Origin: Anaeromyxobacter dehalogenans 2CP-1
Lineage (GTDB): Bacteria > Myxococcota > Myxococcia > Myxococcales > Anaeromyxobacteraceae
NCBI RefSeq assembly: GCF_000022145.1
Contig: NC_011891.1
Span: 2,616,001 to 2,680,000, forward strand
Reading direction: 5' to 3'
Length of the DNA: 64,000 nt
The notes beneath the pieces are model-generated. The model saw nothing but the letters and a program-made list of their open reading frames with translations, was not told where the DNA came from and did no database searches. Every line of letters starts with the position of its first letter. The stretch's first letter is position 1. This document shows positions 6,837 to 28,464 of this stretch, piece after piece. A program made the translations under genes and the position numbers.

Positions 6837-7376
6837 CTAGGTCTTCTCCACCTGCATGAAGTCGAGCTCTACCGGCGTGGCGCGGCCGAAGATCGACACC
6901 AGCACCCGGAGCTTGCCCTTGTCCGGCTTGACCTCCTCGACGGTGCCGTTGAAGTTCGAGAACGGGCCGTCGGTCACGCGGACCGAGTCGCCCTCCTCGA
7001 ACTGCACCTTGGGCTTCGGCTTGAGCGAGCCCTCGGAGATCTGCGTGGTGAGCCGCTGCACCTCGACGTCGGACACCGCCGGGACCTGCTCCGGCGTCTT
7101 CGCGTTGCCGACGAACCCGGTGACCTTCGGCGTCCCCTTCACGAGGTGCCAGGTCTGCAGGCTCATCTCCATGTTCACCAGGATGTAGCCGGGGAAGAAC
7201 TTCCGCTTGGAGGTCTTCTTCTCCCCCTTCACCATCTCCTGGACCACCTCCATCGGGATGAGCACCTCGCCGAACGCGTCCTGCAGCGAGTGCTGCCGGA
7301 TGCGCTCGTCGAGCGACTTCTTCACCTTGTTCTCGAACCCCGAGTAGGTGTGGACGACGTACCACTTCTTCGCCAT
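6837..7376 (-). CDS. nusG: transcription termination/antitermination protein NusG
   Basis: Binds RNA polymerase, suppresses pausing, and links it to Rho or to the ribosome (S10). 179 residues, normal length: NGN domain at about 3-110 ([17 protein letters not shown]) and a C-terminal KOW domain ([21 protein letters not shown]). Start ATG at 7376. It follows secE by 110 bases, the common secE-nusG pair. Confidence 0.98.
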
Positions 7377-7486
7377 GACCGCTCCGTTCCGTCGCCCGCG
7401 CGTCGATTCCAGAAAACGCCGATGGAGCCGTGCTGGCGGCCCCCAACCGCCGCGGCTCCGTCCCGGCCGCGAAGAACGCGGGGACC

Positions 7487-7879
7487 TCAGTAGATCTTCG
7501 AGCTCAGCCAGCTCCAGACGAGATCGAAGAGACCGAGGATGACCGCCGCGACGGCGGACGCGACGATCACCGCCACGGTGGCGGCGCGCGTCTCGCGCAT
7601 GCTCGGCCAGGTGACTCGCCGGAGCTCGAGCGCCACCTCCAGCGACACCTGCTGCGTCTTCGGGATCCGCCAGACCACCACCGCGGTCGCGATGGCGAGC
7701 GCGAAGCCCGTCACCGTGGACAGCGTCCAGTCGCTGAACACCGCGAAGTCGTTGACGCCCGCGTACCCGAGCGCCAGCTCGAGGACCTTCTCCAGGAAGA
7801 TCCCCAGCGCGATGGCCGCGAGCACGTAGAAGATCCCCACGACGCGCTTCGGCTGATCGACCCCGCCGACGTTGTCCAT
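7487..7879 (-). CDS. secE: preprotein translocase subunit SecE
   Basis: Small essential subunit of the SecYEG channel, stabilising SecY in the inner membrane. 130 residues with three predicted membrane segments (about 14-32, 48-68, 103-125), as in the three-helix E. coli form rather than the one-helix form. The conserved amphipathic segment [13 protein letters not shown] lies before the last helix. Between tRNA-Trp and nusG, the standard location. Confidence 0.95.
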
Positions 7880-7941
7880 GACCCTCGACCTTCGGCTTCG
7901 GAGGGCGGGGCCGCCCGTGGACGGCCCCGCCCCGTTCTGTC

Positions 7942-8017
7942 TGGCAGGCCAGGAGGGATTCGAACCCCCAACCCGCGGTTTTGGAGACCGCTGCTCTACC
8001 GTTGGAGCTACTGGCCT
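7942..8017 (-). tRNA. tRNA-Trp (anticodon CCA)
   Basis: Complete cloverleaf of 76 bases with an AGGCCAG/CTGGCCT acceptor stem, anticodon loop CTCCAAA and T-loop GTTCGAATC. The 3' CCA is encoded. It lies between rpmG and secE inside the operon, a position seen in many bacteria. Confidence 0.97.
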
Positions 8018-8032
8018 AGGTGCCGCTCGTGG

Positions 8033-8191
8033 CTACTTCGTCTCCTTGTGCTCCACGTGCTTGCGGCAGCGCGGGCAGTACTTGGAGAGCGTGAGCTTGT
8101 CCTGCGTCTTCTTCTTGTTCTTGGTGGTCGTGTAGTTCCGCTCTTTGCAGGTCTTGCACTCGAGCGTGATGATGCTGCGATTGCCGGCCAT
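8033..8191 (-). CDS. rpmG: 50S ribosomal protein L33
   Basis: Small large-subunit protein of 52 residues near the E-site. The reading frame from ATG at 8191 gives [20 protein letters not shown] and ends [11 protein letters not shown]. Four cysteines (CKTC and CPRC) show this is the zinc-binding form, so its expression may not depend on a zinc-free paralogue unless zinc is limiting. It lies between tuf and tRNA-Trp, the standard context. Confidence 0.97.
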
Positions 8192-8206
8192 GACGTCCTT
8201 CTTTCC

Positions 8207-9397
<1,191 letters not shown>

Positions 9398-17459: not shown

Positions 17460-19754
17460 TCACACCGCGGCGCGGCGAGGGGCGCGGAGGCTGGCCGCCG
17501 AGACGCTCTGGTTCCGGCCGTGCCGCTTGGCGTGGTAGAGGCAGGCGTCGGCGCGCTCGATCAGCGCCGGCTTCTGCGCCCCGTCGTCGGGGAAGGTGGC
17601 GACCCCGAGCGACAGGGTCACCTTGAGGGGACCCTGCTCGGTCTCGAAGACGAGCTGCCCGACCTTCTCGCGGATGCGCTCGGCGATCACCATCGCGCCG
17701 CCCGTGTCGGTCTCGGGCATGACGATGGCGAACTCCTCGCCGCCGTAGCGGGCCACCACGTCGGTGCCGCGCGCGGCCCGCGCCAGCGTCCTCGCCACCC
17801 CGCGCAGCACCTGATCGCCCACCGGGTGGCCGTACGTGTCGTTCACCGACTTGAAGTGGTCGATGTCGCACAGCAAGAGCGACGTCCGCTTCCCGTACCG
17901 CTGCGCCTGGCCGAGGTGCGCGTCCAGCCGCTCCTGGAACGTCCGATGGTTCGTGAGGCCGGTGAGGCCGTCGGTGGTGGCGAGCCGCTCGGTCTGGTCG
18001 AACAGGCGCGCGCGGTCGATCGACTGGGCCGCGTGCATCGAGATCACGAGCAGTTGCTGGACGGCGTCGCGGCCGTACGCGCCGGCGCGCTTGGCGCCCA
18101 GCACGAGCGCGCCGATGGAGCGCTCGCCCACCTTGAGCGGGAAGATCTTGAGCGAGGCGAGGCCGCGCAGGCAGACCGCGCCGAACACCCGCGTCTTCGC
18201 GGGATCGAGCGCGTTCACCGGGAGCACGTCGTCGATCTTGATGGCCGAGGACACCAGGCAGCCGTCGCCCATGGCGAACTCGAGGTCGTCGAGGCCGGCC
18301 GCGCCGGTGCGATCGCCCTCCCCGCCCGCCACGCGCACCACGCGCACCCTGGACGGATCCACCTCGTCGCGCAGCGCCACCGCGGCGAAGTCCACCGTGA
18401 CCATCTCCGACGCCACGCCCACCAGCGCGTCGTAGACCTCCGAGAGCTTCCGGGTGCGGTTCAGCCGCTCGATGGACCGGTAGAACCGGTCCACCTCCGC
18501 GCGCGTCTGGCGGACGTCCTTCATCAGCCGCTCGGCGCCGACCGCCCGCAGGATCTCGGCGGCCAGCGTGACGAGGAGCTTCTCCTCGGCCTCGGTGAAC
18601 GGCGTCGGCTCCATCCGGTCCACCAGCACGACGCCGCGCACGTGGCCGCCGCGCGGGTCCACCAGCGGCGCGGCGAGCAGCGCCTTCGGCCGGGTGCCGT
18701 CCGCGTAGTAGCTGACCGCCTTCACCTCGCCGTGGAGCCGCACCGGGGAGCGGCGGCGCACCGCGCCGCCCAGCGGGCCTTCCCCGGCCGGCAGCGGCTC
18801 GCGGCCCACCGCCTCGCTGGGCGAGCGGCAGTCGAGCAGCGTGAGCGTCTTCTCGTCCTCGCTCAGCCAGAACAGCGCGCAGGTGTGACAGCGCAGGGCG
18901 GCCACCGCGACCTCCAGCGCCCCGCCCACCGCCGCCTCGATCTCGATCACCGCGCCCTCGCTCCAGCGGCGCTCGCGCTCGGCCGGATCCTGCGCGTCGT
19001 CCGGCGCCGCCACGCTCAGCCGGAACGCGCGCGCCAGGTGGTCGATCTCCTTCATGCGCCGCTCGATGGCGAGCCGCTCGTCGCGCCGGCTGGCGGCGAC
19101 CTGCCCGGCCAGCACGGCGTAGTAGAGCACCGCGAACACGGTCACGAAGCCGGCGTGCACCACCGCCTCGGGCAGCTCCGCCACCCGCGCGCCGCGCCCG
19201 GCCCACAGCAGCGCCTCCAGCGTCACCGCGAGCGCCACCAGCCCGGCGCCGACGCCCGGGGCGAGGAACGCCACCAGGAACGCCATCACCAGGTAGACCA
19301 CCGGCTGGAACGCCGACTCGGCGTGCCCGAAGCTCGCGCTCTGCGCCACCGCGTACGCCGCCACCACGAACAGCGAGCCCAGCTCGAGCTGCTCGCGGTA
19401 GCCCGCCTGCTCCCCCGCGGCCGCGCGCGCCACCCGGCGCCACACCAGCGCGCCGAGCGCGACCGCCAGGACCGCCATGGCGGCTACCTGACCCCAGCCC
19501 GCGGCGGACTCGAAGCCGCGCAGCGCCACCAGCGCGCCCACCGCCACCGTGACCAGCGCCGGCAGGCTGCGCAGGACGAAGCGCGCCGCCCGGCGACGGG
19601 CGATGGGGCCGGCCAGCCCCGCGTCGCCGAGCAGCAGCGCGTACGCGCGGATGAGCAGGGGCCGCGAGCGCTGCAGCGCCAGGCGGCGGCGCACCGTGGG
19701 CGTGGCGCCCACCGGCGCGCGCACCGGCGGCAGCGCGGGGAGCGGCTCGCTCAC
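17460..19754 (-). CDS. membrane-bound GAF-GAF-GGDEF diguanylate cyclase
   Basis: 764 residues from GTG at 19754, overlapping the ftsB-like stop as GTGA. Residues about 60-225 hold five or six hydrophobic segments; two GAF-like sensor domains follow at about 270-430 and 450-585; the GGDEF domain occupies 590-750. The active motif is GGEEF (RYGGEEFAIVMPE), and an RGTD inhibitory I-site lies at the normal distance upstream, so both catalysis and product inhibition look intact. Substrate residues in CDIDHFKSVNDTYGH are conserved. Makes c-di-GMP in response to an unknown signal. The open frame extends upstream through ftsB but has no homology there. Confidence 0.92.
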   Translation of the reverse strand: MSEPLPALPPVRAPVGATPTVRRRLALQRSRPLLIRAYALLLGDAGLAGPIARRRAARFVLRSLPALVTVAVGALVALRGFESAAGWGQVAAMAVLAVALGALVWRRVARAAAGEQAGYREQLELGSLFVVAAYAVAQSASFGHAESAFQPVVYLVMAFLVAFLAPGVGAGLVALAVTLEALLWAGRGARVAELPEAVVHAGFVTVFAVLYYAVLAGQVAASRRDERLAIERRMKEIDHLARAFRLSVAAPDDAQDPAERERRWSEGAVIEIEAAVGGALEVAVAALRCHTCALFWLSEDEKTLTLLDCRSPSEAVGREPLPAGEGPLGGAVRRRSPVRLHGEVKAVSYYADGTRPKALLAAPLVDPRGGHVRGVVLVDRMEPTPFTEAEEKLLVTLAAEILRAVGAERLMKDVRQTRAEVDRFYRSIERLNRTRKLSEVYDALVGVASEMVTVDFAAVALRDEVDPSRVRVVRVAGGEGDRTGAAGLDDLEFAMGDGCLVSSAIKIDDVLPVNALDPAKTRVFGAVCLRGLASLKIFPLKVGERSIGALVLGAKRAGAYGRDAVQQLLVISMHAAQSIDRARLFDQTERLATTDGLTGLTNHRTFQERLDAHLGQAQRYGKRTSLLLCDIDHFKSVNDTYGHPVGDQVLRGVARTLARAARGTDVVARYGGEEFAIVMPETDTGGAMVIAERIREKVGQLVFETEQGPLKVTLSLGVATFPDDGAQKPALIERADACLYHAKRHGRNQSVSAASLRAPRRAAV

Positions 19755-20050
19755 GGGGCCCCTCCGCGCTCGGCGCCCAGCCAGTAGACCCGCTCGCCCG
19801 GGCGGATGTACCGGAGCTCCTCGCGCACGGCGCGCTCCAGCGCGGCGGGCTCGGAGCGGAGCGCCCGGACCTCGCGCGCGAGGCGGGCGTTCTCGGCCGC
19901 CAGGCGCTCGTTCTCGGCGCGCATCTGGTCCACCTCGCCGGCGAGGCGCAGGTGCTTGCGGAGGCCGGACGGATCGGCGGCGGAGAGGGCCGCCAGCAAG
20001 GCGACGACCCCCACGTACACGCCCCACCTGCGTCCGCGCGTCACGGCCAT
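19751..20050 (-). CDS. FtsB/DivIC-type septum formation initiator protein
   Basis: 99 residues: one membrane helix (about 9-28), then a coiled coil (LRLAGEVDQMRAENERLAAENARLAREVRAL) and the conserved end EELRYIRPGERVYWL. These bitopic proteins bridge FtsL and FtsQ in the divisome. Its stop overlaps the start of the GGDEF gene, so they are translationally coupled, an uncommon pairing of a division protein with a c-di-GMP cyclase. Confidence 0.88.
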   Translation of the reverse strand: MAVTRGRRWGVYVGVVALLAALSAADPSGLRKHLRLAGEVDQMRAENERLAAENARLAREVRALRSEPAALERAVREELRYIRPGERVYWLGAERGGAP

Positions 20051-20193: not shown

Positions 20194-21240
20194 CTACCTG
20201 GTATGCACCGTCACGAACGCGGAGAGGCCGGCGCGCAGGGGAAGATCGGCCGGCACCGCGTCCCAGGCGATCCGCACCGGCACGCGCTCGACCACCTTGA
20301 CGAAGTTCCCGGACGCGTTGTCCGGCGGCAGGAGCGCGAAGCGCGCGCCGGTCCCGCCGGAGATGCTCTCCACCTTGCCGTGGAGCGTGCGCCCGCCGTA
20401 CGCGTCGATCTCCACGTCCACCGGCTGGCCGGGGCGGATCTCGCCGGTCTGCGTCTCCTTGAAGTTCGCGATCACGTAGGTCCGGTCGGGCACGAGCTGA
20501 CCGAGGCTCTGGCCCGGTTGCACGATCTGCCCCACCCGCGCGGCCAGGCGCGAGACGCGGCCGGAGGCGGGCGCGCGCACCTCGGTGTAGGAGCGCTGCA
20601 GGCGCGCCAGGTCCACCGCGGCCTGCGCCGCCTTCACCCGGGCCCTGGCCAGCTCGCCGCTGGCCAGCGCGGCCGCGTACTGCGCCCGGTTCGCGCCGGC
20701 GCCGGCGCGGGCGGTGGCGCCGGCGATGCGCGTGGCGTCGTAGCGCTCGGCCGCGATGGCGTCGCCAGCCTTCAGCTCCTCGGCGCGGCGCAGGTCGAGC
20801 GCCGCCTTCTCCGACTCGGCCTCCGCGCGCGTCACCCCGGCGCGCGCGACCGACACCTGCGCCTCCGCGGCCGCCGCCTGCGCCTGGGCCGTCGCCAGCT
20901 CGGCCTCGGCCTGGCGGACGCGCACCTCGTAGTCGGCCGGGTCGACGCGCACGAGCGGCTGGCCCTGCCGCACCTGGGCGTTGTCCGCGACCAGCACCTC
21001 GGCCACCGGGCCGGCCACCCGCGGCGCGATGGCGACGACGTCGGCCTCCACCTGCGCGTCGTCGGTGCTCTCCTCGCCGCGGGTGAGGAGCGCGTGCGCG
21101 CCGAGCGCGATCGCGACGAGCAGCGCGGCCAGGACGGCGCCCACGAGCACGCGGCGCCGGCCGCCCGGACGCGCCGGGGCGGCCGCCGGCGCGGGGGAGC
21201 TCGGGACCTCGTGGAGCCTGGGATCGGCGGGAGGGGTCAT
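20194..21240 (-). CDS. HlyD/EmrA-type membrane fusion protein
   Basis: 348 residues. A proline-rich cytoplasmic tip, one membrane anchor (about 33-52), then a barrel-sandwich/lipoyl half-motif (EADVVAIAPRVAGPVAEVLVADNAQVRQGQPL), a long alpha-helical hairpin (about 100-200), and the second lipoyl half (VRAPASGRVSRLAARVGQIVQPGQSL). Partners an MFS pump to span the periplasm. ATG at 21240 has GGAG eight bases upstream; a GTG at 21246 overlapping the pump stop is the alternative. Last gene of a three-gene operon. Confidence 0.93.
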   Translation of the reverse strand: MTPPADPRLHEVPSSPAPAAAPARPGGRRRVLVGAVLAALLVAIALGAHALLTRGEESTDDAQVEADVVAIAPRVAGPVAEVLVADNAQVRQGQPLVRVDPADYEVRVRQAEAELATAQAQAAAAEAQVSVARAGVTRAEAESEKAALDLRRAEELKAGDAIAAERYDATRIAGATARAGAGANRAQYAAALASGELARARVKAAQAAVDLARLQRSYTEVRAPASGRVSRLAARVGQIVQPGQSLGQLVPDRTYVIANFKETQTGEIRPGQPVDVEIDAYGGRTLHGKVESISGGTGARFALLPPDNASGNFVKVVERVPVRIAWDAVPADLPLRAGLSAFVTVHTR

Positions 21241-21242
21241 GG

Positions 21243-22832
21243 TCACATCTCCATCTCGACGTGGACCTTCTCGCGCGGTCCGTGCCGGTTCACCTTGAGG
21301 AAGTAGAGGAGCGGGAGCACGCACAGGAACAGGACGCCGGTGACGAACAGCACGTGCTCGAAGGCGATCACCATCGACTGCTTGCGCACGATGCCGTCCA
21401 GCGCCCGGAGCGCGGCCTCGCGGGCGGAGACCGGGTCGAAGCCCCGCTGCGCGAAGAACGCCGCCAGCTGCCCGAGCCGGTCCTGCACCTCCGGCCGCTC
21501 GGGCCCGAGGTGGCTCGCGACCGCGGCCCGGGCGTGGACGCCGGCGCGGTCGAGCAGCGTCGCGAAGATGGCGAGGCCCATCGACGCGCCCACCTGGCGC
21601 AGCAGCGAGTTCAGCCCGGTCGCGTCCGCCAGCCGGGCGCGCGGCACGTTGGAGAGCGCGGCGGTGGTGAGCGGCACGAACAGGAAGCTGAAGCCCACCC
21701 CCTGGATCAGGATCGCGTGGACGATGCCGGAGGAGGTGCTCTCCAGCGTGATGCGCGAGACGTCGAAGGAGCCGAGCGACACCAGCACCACGCCGATGGC
21801 GACCAGCAGCCGCGGCGACACGCGCGAGTAGAGCCGGCCGACGATGGGCGTGACCAGCATCATCACCAGCACGCGCGGCATGAGCGCGAGGCCGGACTGC
21901 ATGGCGGTGAAGCCGAGCAGCTCCTGCATGAACAGCGGCAGCAGGAACATGCTCGCCATCAGGATCGCGAACATGACGGCGCCGATGACCGTGCCGGAGG
22001 TGAACACCGCGTCGCCGAACAGCCGCAGGTTCACCGCGGGCACCTTCGCCACCAGCTCGCGCCAGACGAACAGCGCCAGCGCGACGGCGGCCACCGCCGC
22101 CACCGCGGTGATGGTGCGCGACTCGAACCAGTCGTCCCGCTGCCCCTCCTCGAGGAAGTACTGGAGCGTCGCGAGCCCGACCGCGAGGAGCGCGATGCCG
22201 AGCCAGTCCATGTTCCGCCGCTGCTCGGCCGCCGCGGCCGCGTTCGCGGCGCGGATGTCCTCCGGCTCGTGCACGAAGCGCCACACCATGAACAGGCCCA
22301 GCGCGCCCACCGGCAGGTTGATGAAGAAGATCCAGGACCAGTGGAAGTTGTCCACGATGTAGCCGCCCAGGGTCGGGCCGACGGCGGGGCCCACCATCAC
22401 CGCCATCGCGAACAGCGCCATGGCCATGCCCTGCTCCTTGGGCGGGAAGGTCTGGCGCAGGATGGCCTGCTCGGTGGGCTGCAGCGCGCCCGCGCCGAGC
22501 CCCTGGATGGCGCGGAAGGCCACCACCTGGCCGAGGCTGGAGGCCAGGCCGCAGAGCGCCGAGCCGACCACGAACACGAGCAGGCTCGCCATGTAGACGC
22601 GCTTCTGCCCGAACAGGCGGCCCAGGAACGCGGTCAGCGGCATCACGATCACCGTGGCGATGGCGAAGCCGGTGGTGATCCAGGTGATCTCCTGCACGGT
22701 CGCGCCGACCGCGCCGCGGATCTGCGGGAGCGCCACGTTCACGATGGACGCGTCGATTGCGCCCATGAGCGTGCCGAAGGTGACCGACACGGTCACCAGC
22801 CACTTGTTGGTGGGCGCGCGCGCGGCGCTCAC
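21243..22832 (-). CDS. DHA2-family (EmrB/QacA) MFS drug efflux transporter
   Basis: 529 residues with about 14 membrane segments, from GTG at 22832 that overlaps the TetR stop (GTGA). The DHA2 signatures GTLMGAIDASIVNVALPQI in helix 1 and GLGAGALQPTEQAIL near helix 5 are clear. Proton-driven export of hydrophobic drugs across the inner membrane; with the HlyD-type protein and a TolC-like channel it exports out of the cell. The C-terminal cytoplasmic tail is basic. Regulated most likely by the upstream TetR protein. Confidence 0.94.
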   Translation of the reverse strand: MSAARAPTNKWLVTVSVTFGTLMGAIDASIVNVALPQIRGAVGATVQEITWITTGFAIATVIVMPLTAFLGRLFGQKRVYMASLLVFVVGSALCGLASSLGQVVAFRAIQGLGAGALQPTEQAILRQTFPPKEQGMAMALFAMAVMVGPAVGPTLGGYIVDNFHWSWIFFINLPVGALGLFMVWRFVHEPEDIRAANAAAAAEQRRNMDWLGIALLAVGLATLQYFLEEGQRDDWFESRTITAVAAVAAVALALFVWRELVAKVPAVNLRLFGDAVFTSGTVIGAVMFAILMASMFLLPLFMQELLGFTAMQSGLALMPRVLVMMLVTPIVGRLYSRVSPRLLVAIGVVLVSLGSFDVSRITLESTSSGIVHAILIQGVGFSFLFVPLTTAALSNVPRARLADATGLNSLLRQVGASMGLAIFATLLDRAGVHARAAVASHLGPERPEVQDRLGQLAAFFAQRGFDPVSAREAALRALDGIVRKQSMVIAFEHVLFVTGVLFLCVLPLLYFLKVNRHGPREKVHVEMEM

Positions 22833-23437
22833 CGCCCCGCCCCGCGCAGGAACGCGTCGAGCGCCGCGTCCACGAAGCCGTCCCAGCTGCCCTGCCGTTC
22901 CAGCGTGCGCACCACCAGCGCCCGGGTGATCCCCAGGAACGCGACCGCGTGGACGCCATGCCCGTCCGGGCGGAGCTCGCCCGCGCGCACGCCACGCCGG
23001 ACGATCGCCTCCGCGCGCCGGGTCAGCTCGGCGTTCAGCGTCGCGGGGGGACGGGCCCGCGCCGGCCCCTCCCCGGACTGCGCCAGCACGGCCAGGAACG
23101 GGCCCCGGGCGCGGGCGTGGTCGCGCACGCCCTCCAGGAACGCGCGGAGCTGCTCGGCCGCGGGGCGGCCCTGCGCCGCCGCGACCGCCGCATCGACCCG
23201 CGCCAGGAGCGCCTCGCGCCCGTCCCGGCACAGCGCCTCGACCAGCGCCTCGCGGTCGGCGAAGTGGTTGTACAGCGTGCCCACGGCCACGCCGGCGGCG
23301 GCGGCGATCCGCTCCATCCGCGCCGCGTGCAGCCCCTCCTCCCCGAACACCCGCTCGGCCGCGGCGAGGATGGCCCGGGCGGTCTCCTCGCGGAGCCGCT
23401 CGCGCAGGCGGGGGACCTCTTGTGAACGCGTGTTCAT
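22829..23437 (-). CDS. TetR-family transcriptional repressor
   Basis: 202 residues, start ATG at 23437. N-terminal HTH at about 17-63 (RAILAAAERVFGEEGLHAARMERIAAAAGVAVGTLYNHFADREAL), then a ligand-binding helical domain with TetR-like C-terminal layout. First gene of the efflux operon and divergent from apbE. A 20-bp palindrome immediately upstream is the obvious operator and could control both directions. Confidence 0.93.
   Translation of the reverse strand: MNTRSQEVPRLRERLREETARAILAAAERVFGEEGLHAARMERIAAAAGVAVGTLYNHFADREALVEALCRDGREALLARVDAAVAAAQGRPAAEQLRAFLEGVRDHARARGPFLAVLAQSGEGPARARPPATLNAELTRRAEAIVRRGVRAGELRPDGHGVHAVAFLGITRALVVRTLERQGSWDGFVDAALDAFLRGAGR
23422..23435. promoter_or_regulatory. 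inverted repeat over the tetR start
   Basis: TGAAC-GCGT-GTTCA, two 5-base arms around a 4-base spacer, overlapping the first codons of the TetR gene. The GTGAAC half-site recurs at 23460. Possibly an accessory operator half; weaker than the palindrome at 23440. Confidence 0.3.
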
Positions 23438-23460: not shown

Positions 23461-24567
23461 GTGAACGTCGATGTAGACATCCTGCCGCACGCGGTCAAGC
23501 GTCGCGGGCTGGAGGCCGGCGCGGTGGCAGGCGGACAGGCGCGCGGATATGCCCTGGCATCCGTGCTCGCCCTCCCCGCCCTCCCCGCCCTGCTCGCCCT
23601 CCTCGCGCTCGCGCCTCCCCCGGAGGGCGAGCTCCGCGAGTCGCGCCCGGGGATGGGAACCCTGCTCACGGTCGCGGTGGTGGCGCCACCGGAGCGCGCC
23701 CGCGCCGGCATCGACGCCGCGTTCGCGGTGTTCGACCGGGTCGACCGGGTGATGAACGAGTGGCGGCCCGACTCGCCGCTGTCGCGGCTGAACGCCCGCG
23801 CCGGGCGGGGCTGGGTGGCCCTGCCCGCGGATCTGTGCGAGGTGCTCCGGATCGCCCGGCGGGGCGCCCGCGAGACCGGTGGCCTGTTCGATCCCACCTG
23901 GGCGGCCGTCTCGGACCTCTGGCGCTTCGACGGCACCGAGCAGGCGCCCCCGCCCGACGAGGCGGTGCGGGCGCGGTGTGCGCTCGTCGGCTGGCGCGGG
24001 CTCGAGCTGCGCGCGCGCCGCGGCGACGCGGGGTGCGAGGCGCGCCTCGTGCGCGCCGGGATGAAGGTGGGCCTCGGCGGGCTGGCGAAGGGCTGGGCGG
24101 TGGACCACGCCGCCCGGCGCCTCCGCGCGCTCGGGCTCCGGAACTTCCTGCTCCAGGCGGGCGGGGACCTGTACGCCGCGGGGCGGCGCGGCGGCGCGCC
24201 GTGGCACGTCGCGATCCGGGACCCGCGCGGCGGCCCGCTCGACGCGATGGCCGCACTCGACGTCTCCGACCGCGCCTTCTCCACCAGCGGCGACTACGAG
24301 CACGCCTTCGAGGCGGGCGGGAAGCGCTACCACCACCTCATCGATCCGCGCACCTGCCGGCCCTCGCCGGCCAGCCGCGCGGTCACGGTGCTGGCTCGCA
24401 CCGCCGTGGAGGCCGAGATCCTGGGCAAGGCGGCGTTCCTGGAGGGCGGCGAGGCCGGGCTGGCGCGCGTCGAGGCGGCCGGGGCCGCGGCGATCCTGGT
24501 GGGCGGCGATGGCGCGGTGCGCGTCTCGCCGGCGCTCGCCGGCCGGCTGGTGCGCGCGCCGCGCTGA
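23461..24567 (+). CDS. apbE: ApbE-family FAD:protein FMN transferase
   Basis: 368 residues from GTG at 23461. A hydrophobic stretch (about 29-50) serves as an export signal or anchor, so the enzyme works in the periplasm. Family motifs: GMGTLLTV near 65, GGLAKGWAVD near 202-211, SGDYEHAF with STSG before it, and HHLIDPRTCRP (usual form H-x-x-DPRTG-x-P; here Cys replaces Gly). Known role: moves FMN from FAD to a Ser/Thr in target proteins such as NqrC, RnfG or FMN_bind domains. A target with the right motif, the FMN-binding protein at 25592-26146, lies 1 kb away on the opposite strand, and the two transcripts converge. Confidence 0.92.
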   Translation: MNVDVDILPHAVKRRGLEAGAVAGGQARGYALASVLALPALPALLALLALAPPPEGELRESRPGMGTLLTVAVVAPPERARAGIDAAFAVFDRVDRVMNEWRPDSPLSRLNARAGRGWVALPADLCEVLRIARRGARETGGLFDPTWAAVSDLWRFDGTEQAPPPDEAVRARCALVGWRGLELRARRGDAGCEARLVRAGMKVGLGGLAKGWAVDHAARRLRALGLRNFLLQAGGDLYAAGRRGGAPWHVAIRDPRGGPLDAMAALDVSDRAFSTSGDYEHAFEAGGKRYHHLIDPRTCRPSPASRAVTVLARTAVEAEILGKAAFLEGGEAGLARVEAAGAAAILVGGDGAVRVSPALAGRLVRAPR

Positions 24568-24586: not shown

Positions 24587-25126
24587 TCAATCGCGCCGCG
24601 GCGCCCCGGGCACCCGCTGCGGGCTCGCGCCGTCCGCGGCCGCGGCGCGGCGCACGTGCGCCTCGGCCCGCTCCGGCAGGAACAGGCCCACCAGCAGCAC
24701 GGCCCAGGCGACGAGCGCCGCCTCGAGCCCCACGAACGCGCCGATCTTCACCCAGGCCAGCCACGGCGCCACGAACCGCACGCCCAGCCCCGCCAGCGCG
24801 CCGGCGAGCGCGCAGCCGAAGGAGAGCCGCACCAGCGCCGCGTAGGCGCGCGGGCGGAGCGCGCGGGTGAACGCGACCAGGTGCGCCACCGCGAACAGCA
24901 CCAGCGGGACGGCGACGAGGTGCGGGACGGCGACCTCGAGGATGCCGCCGAGCGTCCGCGGGGCCGCGAAGCGCGCCTCCGACCCCAGGTAGAACTCCTG
25001 CACCCGCGCCGCCGTCGTCCCGAGCTTCAGCACGAACAGCACCGCCCCGCTCGCCGCCGAGACGAGCAGGAGCGCCGCGAACGCGAGGGCGGGCGCGCGG
25101 AACGGCGCGAGGCGCGGATCACGCAC
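24587..25126 (-). CDS. 4-helix membrane protein of the flavin/iron operon (copy 2)
   Basis: 179 residues from GTG at 25126, overlapping the previous gene by 8 bases. Four hydrophobic segments (about 12-33, 62-86, 100-120, 127-149). No named family recognised. Shares an order of features with the neighbouring 158-residue protein: first helix, a loop with a YLG motif (residues 46-48), a His at position 69 entering helix 2, then two helices. It also has His82, 13 residues after His69, the spacing that bis-His b-type haem proteins use along one helix; with only this pair, a haem role is speculation. Last gene of the fur-feoB operon and convergent with apbE. Confidence 0.75.
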   Translation of the reverse strand: MRDPRLAPFRAPALAFAALLLVSAASGAVLFVLKLGTTAARVQEFYLGSEARFAAPRTLGGILEVAVPHLVAVPLVLFAVAHLVAFTRALRPRAYAALVRLSFGCALAGALAGLGVRFVAPWLAWVKIGAFVGLEAALVAWAVLLVGLFLPERAEAHVRRAAAADGASPQRVPGAPRRD

Positions 25127-25595
25127 CGGCGCGCCTCCCCGGCCGCCCGTAGGTGGCCGCGACCAGCGCGAGGAGCGCCCCCAGCGATCCCAGCGCGGCG
25201 ACCGACGTCGCGACCCGCAGCCCGCCGGCGCCCCCGAGCCGCACGACTGCGAACGGCGCGAACAGGTCGGCGAGCGCGGCGGCGAACGCGAGCCCCACCA
25301 GCGCCGAGCGCAGCCGCGCCGGCACCGGGCACACCGCCAGGAGCGACCCGGCCATGAGGAGCACGAAGCCGTAGAGGAACGCGCCGACGTGCACCTCCTC
25401 CCAGAGCGCCGCCGCGGGGAGCGGGTCGCCGCCGGCCAGGTACTGGTCGAGCACGCCCGCGGGGGTGAAGCCTCCCGCGGCCGCGCGCTGGACCGCGACG
25501 CCGGCCAGCGCCAGCGCCGCGAAGACCAGGAAGGCGCGCACCGGCGGGCGGGCCCGCGCCAGCGCGTCGGGGGTGGGCTGGACGAGGAACCTCAC
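25119..25595 (-). CDS. 4-helix membrane protein of the flavin/iron operon (copy 1)
   Basis: 158 residues from GTG at 25595, overlapping the FMN-binding gene stop as GTGA. Four hydrophobic segments (about 20-37, 68-87, 96-115, 125-147). A loop motif QYLAGG (51-56) and EEVH at 66-69 line up with YLGS and VPH69 of the downstream protein, so the two look like diverged duplicates. No recognised domain. Its position after an exported flavoprotein suggests an inner-membrane electron-transfer partner; that is inference. Confidence 0.75.
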   Translation of the reverse strand: MRFLVQPTPDALARARPPVRAFLVFAALALAGVAVQRAAAGGFTPAGVLDQYLAGGDPLPAAALWEEVHVGAFLYGFVLLMAGSLLAVCPVPARLRSALVGLAFAAALADLFAPFAVVRLGGAGGLRVATSVAALGSLGALLALVAATYGRPGRRAGA

Positions 25596-26146
25596 GGCCG
25601 CCCCCCCGCGGCCTCGCGCAACGCCTGGAGCAGCCAGCGCGACTGCTCGGCGATGCCGCGCGCCGAGAGCGTGGCGCCGGTGATGGGCGCGAGGTCGTCG
25701 CCCACCGCCAGCCGGTCCGCGGGGCCCTTGCCCTCGAGCTGCCGCAGCCAGCGCTCCGGCGGCCGGTACTCCTGCGGCTCGAGGAACGCGAGCACCGTCA
25801 CCTTGCGGATGCGCCCGTCCGGCTCGAACGCGAGGAGCAGCGTCTCGCGCTTGGTCCGGACCACGTGGCTGTGGATCACCGCGTGGCCGAGCACCTCGCC
25901 GCCGCGGCGGGCGGTGTAGAACGTCACCAGCCGCTCCTTCACCCGGGCCCGGGCGAGCCGCTCGATGCGCTGGACCATGTCGTCGGTCAGCAGCACGTCA
26001 CGGATCTCCACCCGCTCGGTGCCCGGGAACGCGGACCGGACCACCGCCTCGTCCTTCGCCGGGGCCGATCCCGCGGCATCGGCGGCGGCCCCGCCGGCGG
26101 CGAGCGCCGCGGCGGTGGCCAGCCCGATGAGCAGCGCGCGCGCCAT
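25592..26146 (-). CDS. exported FMN-binding domain protein (probable ApbE substrate)
   Basis: 184 residues, signal peptide (MARALLIGLATAAALAAGGAAADA). The C-terminal half is an FMN_bind domain as in NqrC/RnfG: VLGHAVIHSHVVRTKRET in the core and ITGATLSARG at 155-164. Thr159 in T-G-A-T is the residue that ApbE enzymes flavinylate in known substrates. The protein therefore probably carries covalent FMN in the periplasm and shuttles electrons. It lies 9 bases after the porin gene and overlaps the next membrane protein gene. Confidence 0.88.
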   Translation of the reverse strand: MARALLIGLATAAALAAGGAAADAAGSAPAKDEAVVRSAFPGTERVEIRDVLLTDDMVQRIERLARARVKERLVTFYTARRGGEVLGHAVIHSHVVRTKRETLLLAFEPDGRIRKVTVLAFLEPQEYRPPERWLRQLEGKGPADRLAVGDDLAPITGATLSARGIAEQSRWLLQALREAAGGRP

Positions 26147-26155
26147 GGCCGCCCC

Positions 26156-27508
26156 CTAGAACACGAAGCCGGCGCCGACGTTCACCTGGTCGGTGGCCGA
26201 GCCGGCCTTCGGGTCGCGCCGCTGCCAGTCCGCCTTCAGCACCACCGTGGGGATGGGCTTGAACGTGAGGCCCGCGGTCACGGCGGTGCGATCGAGGCCG
26301 GGATTGCGAACGCCGCCCGCCGGCACGCGGTCGTGCAGGTCGTAGCGCTCCACCCGGACGAACGGCGACAGCGAGGCGGCGCCGCCCGGCGCGACCTGCG
26401 TCATGACGTCGTAGGCGACCTCGGCGTAGCCGCCCTTCACCCCCGAGCCGAGGACCTCCTCGCCCGCGAGCCCGAGCTGCTCGGACACCTGCGCGGCGTC
26501 CCCGAGCCGGCCGACGACGCCCAGCACCCGGGCGCTCGCGCCGCGCCAGGCCGCCTGCGCGTGCAGCTCGGCCAGGGTCACGTCGGCGCGGATGGCCTCG
26601 CCGGTGGCGGTGCGCTCGCGCTGGTCGGCGCGCCCGCGGTAGACCGACCCACCCACGGTGGCGGGCCCGGCGGCGTAGTCGAGCGCGAGCACGCCCGCGC
26701 CGGTGGCCGCGCGCGACTCGGCGCCGCCGCTCCGCGACTGGCGGATCCACGAGTCCGCCTCGGGCGTCTCCTCGCCCCCGCGGAACAGGTCGAGCCCGGT
26801 GAGCAGGTATGCCTTGTAGCGGAGCCCGGCCACCTCGCCGTGCACGCCCACGCCGTTCTCGCTCCAGGTGGTCGGGATGATCAGGCGCTCCACGTCGGGG
26901 CGGAACACGCCGTTGAAGAAGGCCGGCTCGTGCATCTCGTTCACGAAGCCCATGGGGACGAGCACGTTCCCGACCCGGAGGCGCACCGCGTCGGAGAGCA
27001 GGAAGTCGAGGTAGGCGAACTCGACGCCCACCTCGTGGCCGGCGTGCTCGAACTCGATCTCCGAGTTGAAGACGATGCGCTCGTCGAAGCGGTAGCCGAC
27101 GTACAGCACCGCGCGGAGCAGGTCGCTCTGGTCGCCGGTGGGACCGTCGGTCATGTTCCGGTAGGTCAGCTCGCCGTACCCGCCGATGGAGAGCCCCTTG
27201 GGCGCGAAGTAGACCTTGGACGCGGCCGGGCCCATGCCGCCGTACGACTGGTACTCGACGTCGCGCAGCCCCAGCTCGAGCTTCAGGCGGCGCACCTCCT
27301 CCGCGAGCGTGCGGACCTGGGCCTGCGTGGCGGGGGCGTCGTCGTCCTTCGCGGCCGCGCCAGCCTTCTCGCCGCCGGACGCGGGCTGCGTGGACACCGC
27401 GGGCGGCGGCGCCGGGGCCGCGGCGGGCTCGGCCGCGCGCGCGGCGGGGGTGGCGAGGGACAGGGCGAGGAGCAGGGTGCTGGTCGTGATGTTGATTGTC
27501 ATTCTCAT
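26156..27508 (-). CDS. outer-membrane porin-like beta-barrel protein
   Basis: 450 residues. Signal peptide ending near ARAAEP, an Ala/Pro linker, a short coiled coil (about 64-80, AQVRTLAEEVRRLKLELGL) as in S-layer/OprO-type porins, then a barrel of roughly 330 residues with alternating hydrophobic strands and a C-terminal Phe (VNVGAGFVF), the usual BAM signal. Specificity unknown. Between the DtxR-FeoA regulator and the flavoprotein in an iron operon, so uptake of iron species or a conduit role is possible. A Fur-box-like sequence overlaps the start; the second Met (27502) is an alternative start. Confidence 0.82.
   Translation of the reverse strand: MRMTINITTSTLLLALSLATPAARAAEPAAAPAPPPAVSTQPASGGEKAGAAAKDDDAPATQAQVRTLAEEVRRLKLELGLRDVEYQSYGGMGPAASKVYFAPKGLSIGGYGELTYRNMTDGPTGDQSDLLRAVLYVGYRFDERIVFNSEIEFEHAGHEVGVEFAYLDFLLSDAVRLRVGNVLVPMGFVNEMHEPAFFNGVFRPDVERLIIPTTWSENGVGVHGEVAGLRYKAYLLTGLDLFRGGEETPEADSWIRQSRSGGAESRAATGAGVLALDYAAGPATVGGSVYRGRADQRERTATGEAIRADVTLAELHAQAAWRGASARVLGVVGRLGDAAQVSEQLGLAGEEVLGSGVKGGYAEVAYDVMTQVAPGGAASLSPFVRVERYDLHDRVPAGGVRNPGLDRTAVTAGLTFKPIPTVVLKADWQRRDPKAGSATDQVNVGAGFVF
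27493..27507 (-). promoter_or_regulatory. Fur-box-like sequence at the porin start
   Basis: Minus strand TGAGAATGACAATCA matches the 7-1-7 Fur consensus TGATAATNATTATCA at 11 of 14 positions. It overlaps the porin start codon, an unusual but known location for Fur sites. Could make the porin-flavin half of the operon separately iron responsive. Confidence 0.45.
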
Positions 27509-27571: not shown

Positions 27572-28249
27572 CTACCGCGCCTCGACCGGCTTCACGTAGA
27601 TCTCGCCCGCGATCTCCGGATCGAGGGCGATGGTGGTCTCGCCGACCTCGATGACGTACGAGGGCGAGCGCTGGTGCAGGCGGAGCGTCGAGCCGGGGAT
27701 CACCCCCAGCGCGGCGAGCCGGTCCATGCGGTCGTGGAACTTGGGCGCGATGAAGACGATCCGGCCGGTGGCGCCGAGGTCGAAGGCGGCGAGGCCGGTG
27801 ACGAGCGGGCGCACCGTGCGCTGGAACGTGCCGCAGCACGGGCCCGGCGGGATGGGCTTGCCGTGCGGGCAGGTGGGCGGGTGGCCCAGCAGCGTGCAGA
27901 CCGAGTCGGTGGCCTCGGGCGAGAGGATGTGCTCGAACTCGCAGGCCTGCTTCTCCATGGGCTCCTCGCCCAGATCGAGCAGGTCCCGGAACAGCCGCTC
28001 GGTGAGGCGGTGCCGCCGGACCACGTCCTGCGCCTGCCGCTCGCCCGCCTCGGTGAGCGCCACCCGCGTGCCGTCGAGGCGCAGCAACCCCTCGGCGGCG
28101 AGCGCCTCGAGGTCGGACGCGTCGGCGCCGGGCGCGTGATCCGGCGCGGCCTGCGCCAGGATGCCCGCGGCGGCGTCGCGGCCCGCCTCGCGCTCGGTGA
28201 AGACCGCCTCCAGGATCTCCTCGTTGCGGTGCGTGGTGCGGTGATTCAC
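27572..28249 (-). CDS. DtxR/MntR-type metal-dependent regulator fused to FeoA domain
   Basis: 225 residues from GTG at 28249, overlapping the Cys-rich gene stop as GTGA. N-terminal winged helix (about 1-65), metal-binding/dimer domain with RHRLTERLF, EKQACEFEHILSPE and CPHGKPIPPGPC, which hold the Cys/Glu/His ligands of DtxR proteins, then a C-terminal SH3-like FeoA domain from about 145. Most likely an iron (IdeR-like) regulator. In Geobacter an IdeR-type gene also follows fur and feoB. Two iron regulators in one operon is notable. Confidence 0.88.
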   Translation of the reverse strand: MNHRTTHRNEEILEAVFTEREAGRDAAAGILAQAAPDHAPGADASDLEALAAEGLLRLDGTRVALTEAGERQAQDVVRRHRLTERLFRDLLDLGEEPMEKQACEFEHILSPEATDSVCTLLGHPPTCPHGKPIPPGPCCGTFQRTVRPLVTGLAAFDLGATGRIVFIAPKFHDRMDRLAALGVIPGSTLRLHQRSPSYVIEVGETTIALDPEIAGEIYVKPVEAR

Positions 28250-28464
28250 GGTGCGTGTCCCCTCTTCTCCTTCAGGCGATCGAACAGCTTGCGCAGGCCG
28301 CCGGCGACCCCGGACTCCTGCGGGAACGAGTAGCCGCAGGACGGGCAGCAGATCACCTTGCAGCCCTTCGCCATCGGGCAGCTCGGGCGGCAGCCCTGCC
28401 CCTCCGCGTCGAACTCGGTCCCGCACAGCGGGCACCGCTCGCTCCTCGAGACCACGGCCGGCAC
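28246..28464 (-). CDS. small Cys-rich FeoB-associated protein
   Basis: 72 residues from GTG at 28464; GAGAGGAG stands 5 bases upstream and decides this start. Nine cysteines: CPLC, then a middle set with CRPSC, then a cluster ending VICCPSC, followed by an amphipathic basic end. It looks like paired zinc-ribbon knuckles or an iron-binding protein. A small Cys-rich gene after feoB is a repeated theme in bacteria, but the function is not established. Linked on both sides by tight spacing. Confidence 0.75.
   Translation of the reverse strand: MPAVVSRSERCPLCGTEFDAEGQGCRPSCPMAKGCKVICCPSCGYSFPQESGVAGGLRKLFDRLKEKRGHAP

Follow-up and report, generated by a model that had tools for sequence, protein, structure and literature searches.

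Many gene clusters that contain ApbE are without a recognised membrane partner (PMC8238504, PMC10979944). Among the membrane proteins described so far, DUF4405 and FezC are b cytochromes linked to flavinylation or to ferrosomes, and FezC has been modelled with haem sites that are made by homodimerisation (PMC10979944). Flavinylation gene clusters are also linked to iron transporters (PMC8238504). A porin together with Feo is a known route of ferrous iron uptake in E. coli (PMC7315122).

The locus described here, on which a literature search found no study, lies in a window of 64,000 nucleotides (the whole stretch of DNA that was analysed) from an Anaeromyxobacter host genome of 5,029,329 bp in one contig. 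The genes on the minus strand run in the order FeoB-like transporter, DtxR/FeoA regulator, porin-like protein, FMN-binding protein, B and A, where B and A are small membrane proteins. The ApbE gene is convergent to A with a gap of about 20 nt.

23461..24567, plus strand: ApbE, FAD:protein FMN transferase, convergent (PF02424, E = 4.7e-74)
24587..25126, minus strand: A, four-helix membrane protein of 179 aa (ORF and AlphaFold)
25119..25595, minus strand: B, four-helix membrane protein of 158 aa (ORF and AlphaFold)
25592..26146, minus strand: exported protein with FMN-binding domain (weak FMN_bind match, Pfam scan)
26156..27508, minus strand: porin-like outer-membrane beta-barrel of 450 aa (weak Porin_O_P match)
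27572..28252, minus strand: DtxR-type metal regulator with FeoA domain (Fe_dep_repr_C 1.2e-25, FeoA 2.6e-13)
28476..~30353 (start approximate), minus strand: putative FeoB-like ferrous iron transporter (GTPase and transporter, recognised by eye from the ORF)

The FMN-binding gene overlaps B by 4 nt and B overlaps A by 8 nt; between the porin and A, adjacent genes either overlap or have 9 nt between them. A scan for sigma-70 promoters and terminators found none. Anaeromyxobacter sp. PSR-1 holds a 97% identical copy of the locus. The porin, FMN-binding and four-helix genes recur together as a module across Myxococcota, mostly with one four-helix copy and often with ApbE, and in the orthologous locus L079 the porin matches Porin_O_P (PF07396) over the cut-off.

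Several other genes were observed around these modules. A DivIC-like coiled-coil gene and a GAF/GGDEF-type protein (window 17460–20050, minus strand) lie 4–5 kb from the module and are likewise 4–5 kb off it in the distant genome G143 (L081 604–3130, minus strand), which, read by eye, suggests an old conserved synteny. An EmrB/HlyD-like efflux operon, also recognised by eye, is found nearby with a TetR-like gene (window 20194–23437, minus strand), and a similar one with a TolC-like gene is near the single-copy module of G137 (L078 11–4072, plus strand). A lipoprotein-like gene of ~350 aa with no match in Pfam is located directly upstream of the porin in L080 (10224–11261, minus strand) and L081 (10608–11708, minus strand). 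In the draft genome G011 (L077 about 7000–8800), a single frame of 604 aa covers porin and four-helix protein but lacks the ends at which they would join; this is probably a deletion introduced in assembly and not a true fusion.

A first-pass annotation of this DNA had described A and B as two adjacent small four-helix membrane proteins of no recognised family and as likely diverged duplicates, and these points are borne out. AlphaFold places the helices of A at residues 4–34, 39–47, 59–87, 92–118 and 123–149 (mean pLDDT 91.9) and those of B at 9–39, 45–52, 61–87, 93–120 and 124–149 (mean pLDDT 92.2). Each protein has four long helices and one short periplasmic helix in identical order; the predictions (pLDDT 92) give the same layout. 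The c-haem motif in the first loop of the relatives L127 and L128 indicates that this loop is periplasmic, and the positive charges of A and B, at the N-terminus and in the loop between helices 2 and 3, agree with this. Both termini would be cytoplasmic. A and B fall below the cut-off for every Pfam and NCBIfam family, and no relative was found when they and their relatives were scanned against Pfam and NCBIfam and against the PDB by sequence. A Pfam bacteriorhodopsin match to A at E 0.1 was rejected as chance. Fold searches with the two models returned generic helical bundles only, with Z values in the middle range, and neither a cytochrome nor any other family was prominent. The lack of a solved relative and of a known cofactor family would suit a role of A and B outside redox chemistry, in anchoring the flavoprotein or ApbE to the membrane or in assisting their assembly. 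Such a role is very improbable, given the conserved histidines embedded in the membrane and the relatives that carry c-haem in their own loop.

A and B are almost certainly paralogues. Pairwise BLASTP of A against B gave no match. Profile comparison with hhalign matched A to the relatives at 98.7% (E 3.7e-16, score 103), B to the relatives at 97.5% (E 5.4e-12, score 77) and A directly to B at 84% (E 7e-6, score 41). The top scores from 100 block-shuffled sets were 26, 22 and 20 for the same three comparisons, and reversed-sequence controls gave probabilities of ~1% or less. A profile of A and its relatives, built without B rows, matched two places only in the host genome, A and B, the latter at E = 1.3e-12. 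These matches, together with the identical helix layout, support the duplication. The Tyr-Leu loop motif that had been noticed in both proteins also falls in matching alignment columns. Relatives were searched for within Myxococcota. An order-wide search with A returned orthologues in 13 genomes (host included) along with weak relatives that carry the helix-2 motif ExxHxHLF...H, and a reverse search from one relative recovered A in the host genome at E 1.7e-5. A scan of the genome collection seeded with A alone was too insensitive and found the near-identical strain only; tblastn of plasmids with four queries gave no match.

Both proteins match, over their whole length, the profile of an unnamed four-helix Myxococcota family with the pattern H1-x-H2...H3. 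In most single-copy relatives helix 2 carries H1-x-H2 (as ExxH1xH2) and H3 follows 13 residues after H2. Neither A nor B singly has the three histidines that most, not all, single-copy members hold in one chain. In A, H2 is His69 (codon 24920–24922), H3 is His82 (codon 24881–24883) and the H1 column is occupied by Val67. In B, H1 is His69 (codon 25389–25391), the sole histidine of the protein in the window. All 13 A orthologues keep H2 and H3 and have Val, Ile or Leu in the H1 column. All 13 B orthologues keep H1, with Gly or Ser in the H2 column and Ser or Ala in the H3 column. Across A and the single-copy relatives, His69 is invariant and His82 almost invariant; in the B orthologues (n = 13) both His69 and Glu66 are invariant. 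His82 of A, which had been singled out for its position 13 residues after His69, is thus a real and conserved feature. The view of His69 as a residue shared by both proteins does not survive, since all alignments put His69 of A at H2 and His69 of B at H1, two columns earlier. Because single-copy relatives carry both H1 and H2, the two residues are not equivalent and their common number is a coincidence; His69 is invariant within A and within B, but in different columns. As read from the alignments, the histidines of A and B are complementary, not shared, and the A:B pair jointly holds H1, H2 and H3.

The two genes occur together in all 13 genomes with either orthologue, and among the genomes searched B is never found without A. 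In G154, a genome from a different lineage within the phylum, the module consists of a porin, an FMN-binding protein and then a single B-A fusion protein of 332 to 355 aa (the start is uncertain). Against the B profile the first half of the fusion reaches 48 bits, and against the A profile 10; the second half reaches 61 bits against the A profile and has no match to the B profile. The first half carries H1 alone and the second half H2 and H3. In a MAFFT alignment, A rows and B rows both fell on one half of the fusion. In the tree the N-terminal half joins B (99/96) and the C-terminal half joins A (96/92), although with long branches the exact position of the halves is less certain than the profile scores. 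This grouping means that the A/B pair predates Anaeromyxobacteraceae or that transfer spread it. Fusion of neighbouring genes is classic evidence of joint action, and a B-A fusion with the same histidine split is strong evidence that A and B act as a pair. The heterodimer suggested in the first-pass annotation gains support from the fusion and from the 13/13 pairing, and on these sequence grounds an A:B complex is very likely.

A alone might instead be a homodimeric two-haem cytochrome (H2/H2′ and H3/H3′), with B as a diverged accessory subunit for stabilising or docking the FMN protein. In favour of this, the H2/H3 pair of A retains its 13-residue spacing, and FezC has been modelled as a homodimer (PMC10979944). 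However, His69 and Glu66 are invariant in B, none of the searched genomes has B without A, and in G154 the two form one protein; we regard the homodimer as unlikely.

The partner of the A:B pair is suggested by its neighbours. The FMN-binding protein carries the flavinylation motif ITGAT, which is kept in the module orthologues, and Thr159 (codon 25670–25672) is probably the flavin acceptor. It thus has both the [ST]GA[ST] motif and the cognate ApbE by which ApbE-flavinylated FMN_bind proteins are recognised. A single ApbE and a single FMN_bind-like protein were found in the host genome, both at the A/B locus, and linkage to these two genes is a trait of the MsrQ-like and PepSY-like flavinylation cytochromes. 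Within Anaeromyxobacteraceae, ApbE is present in 11 of 12 genomes with A/B, the twelfth having its locus cut by a contig end, versus 1 of 12 without A/B (p = 1e-4).

Among the relatives, H3 goes together with flavin attachment. The [ST]GA[ST] motif is present beside the H3-bearing relatives examined, with TGST in place of TGAT in L088 and the FMN gene not seen on the short contig L086, and it is absent beside the H3-less L084, L067, L093 and L130 (Fisher p = 2.6e-4, a value that stands for about two independent losses since the rows are related). No ApbE was detected in G001, G004, G005 and G012, which have the H3-less form. The exceptions to this pattern are G190, G121 and one G012 gene, which bear H3 with no ApbE detected in the genome. 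Two H3-less relatives have CxxCH in their own first loop (L127 6501–7439 and L128 1052–1759, both minus strand), the one in L128 with no family match in Pfam and NCBIfam, and c-haem proteins adjoin other H3-less relatives (L129–L131). H3-less relatives are thereby accompanied either by FMN-like proteins that lack the flavin attachment site or by c-haem. The conserved gene order, the sole ApbE and FMN protein and the covariation of H3 with the motif all support the earlier idea of a conduit to the flavoprotein; electron transfer from A/B to this protein is, from comparative evidence of this kind, probable.

The same covariation bears on what the histidines bind. The ExxHxH of the single-copy relatives looks like a metal site, and an iron transporter and a metal regulator adjoin A/B, so that the ligand could be a metal ion (Fe, Cu or Mn) in place of haem, with A/B binding or transferring metal in the membrane next to FeoB. 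This is improbable, as the family is constantly partnered by a flavinylated redox protein and not by a transporter, and H3 covaries with flavinylation while c-haem goes with the H3-less relatives. Involvement of haem or quinol is plausible, and we lean slightly towards haem b in A/B.

The iron genes have a narrower distribution. FeoB and the DtxR/FeoA regulator adjoin the module in 8/8 Anaeromyxobacter genomes examined and in 0/5 of the other two-copy or fused genomes examined. FeoB linkage is thus confined to the genus, and iron may be a local use. The gene of a bacterioferritin-associated ferredoxin (Bfd) lies beside the single-copy module in L077. The presence of porin, DtxR/FeoA regulator and FeoB genes in one operon points to reduction of periplasmic ferric iron for FeoB uptake as its job, and we put this role forward tentatively for Anaeromyxobacter. 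Anaeromyxobacter is also a metal reducer, and this lifestyle would suit a respiratory function in which the flavoprotein and the porin form a route through the outer membrane to extracellular acceptors, like the porin-cytochrome conduits. In its favour, the porin is conserved in the module, c-type cytochrome genes adjoin some relatives and FeoB is absent from most modules. Against it, the porin looks like a common diffusion porin (PF07396), reading of the modules revealed no multihaem cytochrome, the Anaeromyxobacter operon carries FeoB and the DtxR/FeoA regulator, and a porin with Feo is a known ferrous uptake route in E. coli (PMC7315122). The respiratory route is, like the homodimer of A, unlikely.

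Our main reading, with a probability of roughly 0.5, is that A and B are two halves of one membrane electron carrier, likely with b haem, which feeds the flavinylated protein and serves ferric reduction. The ancestor would have been of the single-copy kind, its helix 2 carrying H1-x-H2 towards the periplasm and H3 towards the cytoplasm. Once the gene had duplicated, H1 would have been retained in B, and H2 with H3 in A, the full set being present only in the A:B pair. Both His69 residues would lie in the periplasmic third of helix 2, where they could hold one b-type haem between the subunits at the periplasmic side. His82 of A, about 20 Å deeper in the membrane, may bind a second cofactor or contribute to a quinol site. 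Electrons would pass from the membrane pool through A:B to the FMN attached by ApbE to the threonine of ITGAT in the periplasmic protein, and in Anaeromyxobacter from there to ferric iron in the periplasm, with subsequent uptake via FeoB. Against this model, B has one conserved histidine, so the pair provides one bis-His site and His82 of A is left with no obvious partner.

The A/B family is a candidate membrane partner for the ApbE clusters of Myxococcota, with no match in the family libraries searched, and A and B are a clean case of functional residues divided between paralogues, as a natural fusion attests. If they are a split-ligand cytochrome class, the covariation of H3 with the flavin site would mark the histidine that serves the flavin route, which is testable.

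FezC and DUF4405 are similar to A and B as small membrane proteins with conserved membrane histidines and a link to flavinylation or an iron compartment (PMC10979944). A single DUF4405 chain, however, comprises six helices with four histidines, while A and B have four helices each and their histidines are split unequally. PF14358 (DUF4405) has no Pfam match in A or B, and its search of the host genome matches only another place. MsrQ-like and PepSY-like cytochromes are likewise membrane partners of an ApbE-flavinylated periplasmic protein, and several are linked to iron transporters (PMC8238504); their Pfam models have no match in A, B or the relatives. In Pcc/Mtr conduits, as in the module, an outer-membrane porin adjoins a periplasmic redox protein, but in the module this is an FMN protein and no multihaem cytochrome is seen. 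The A/B family thus appears to function like a flavinylation-linked membrane cytochrome, yet it stands outside any described class. It may, as a tentative proposal, represent a novel class of flavinylation-linked membrane cytochrome: a once symmetric subunit would have had its haem ligands split between paralogues, which would then form an obligate heterodimer with one asymmetric route for electrons.
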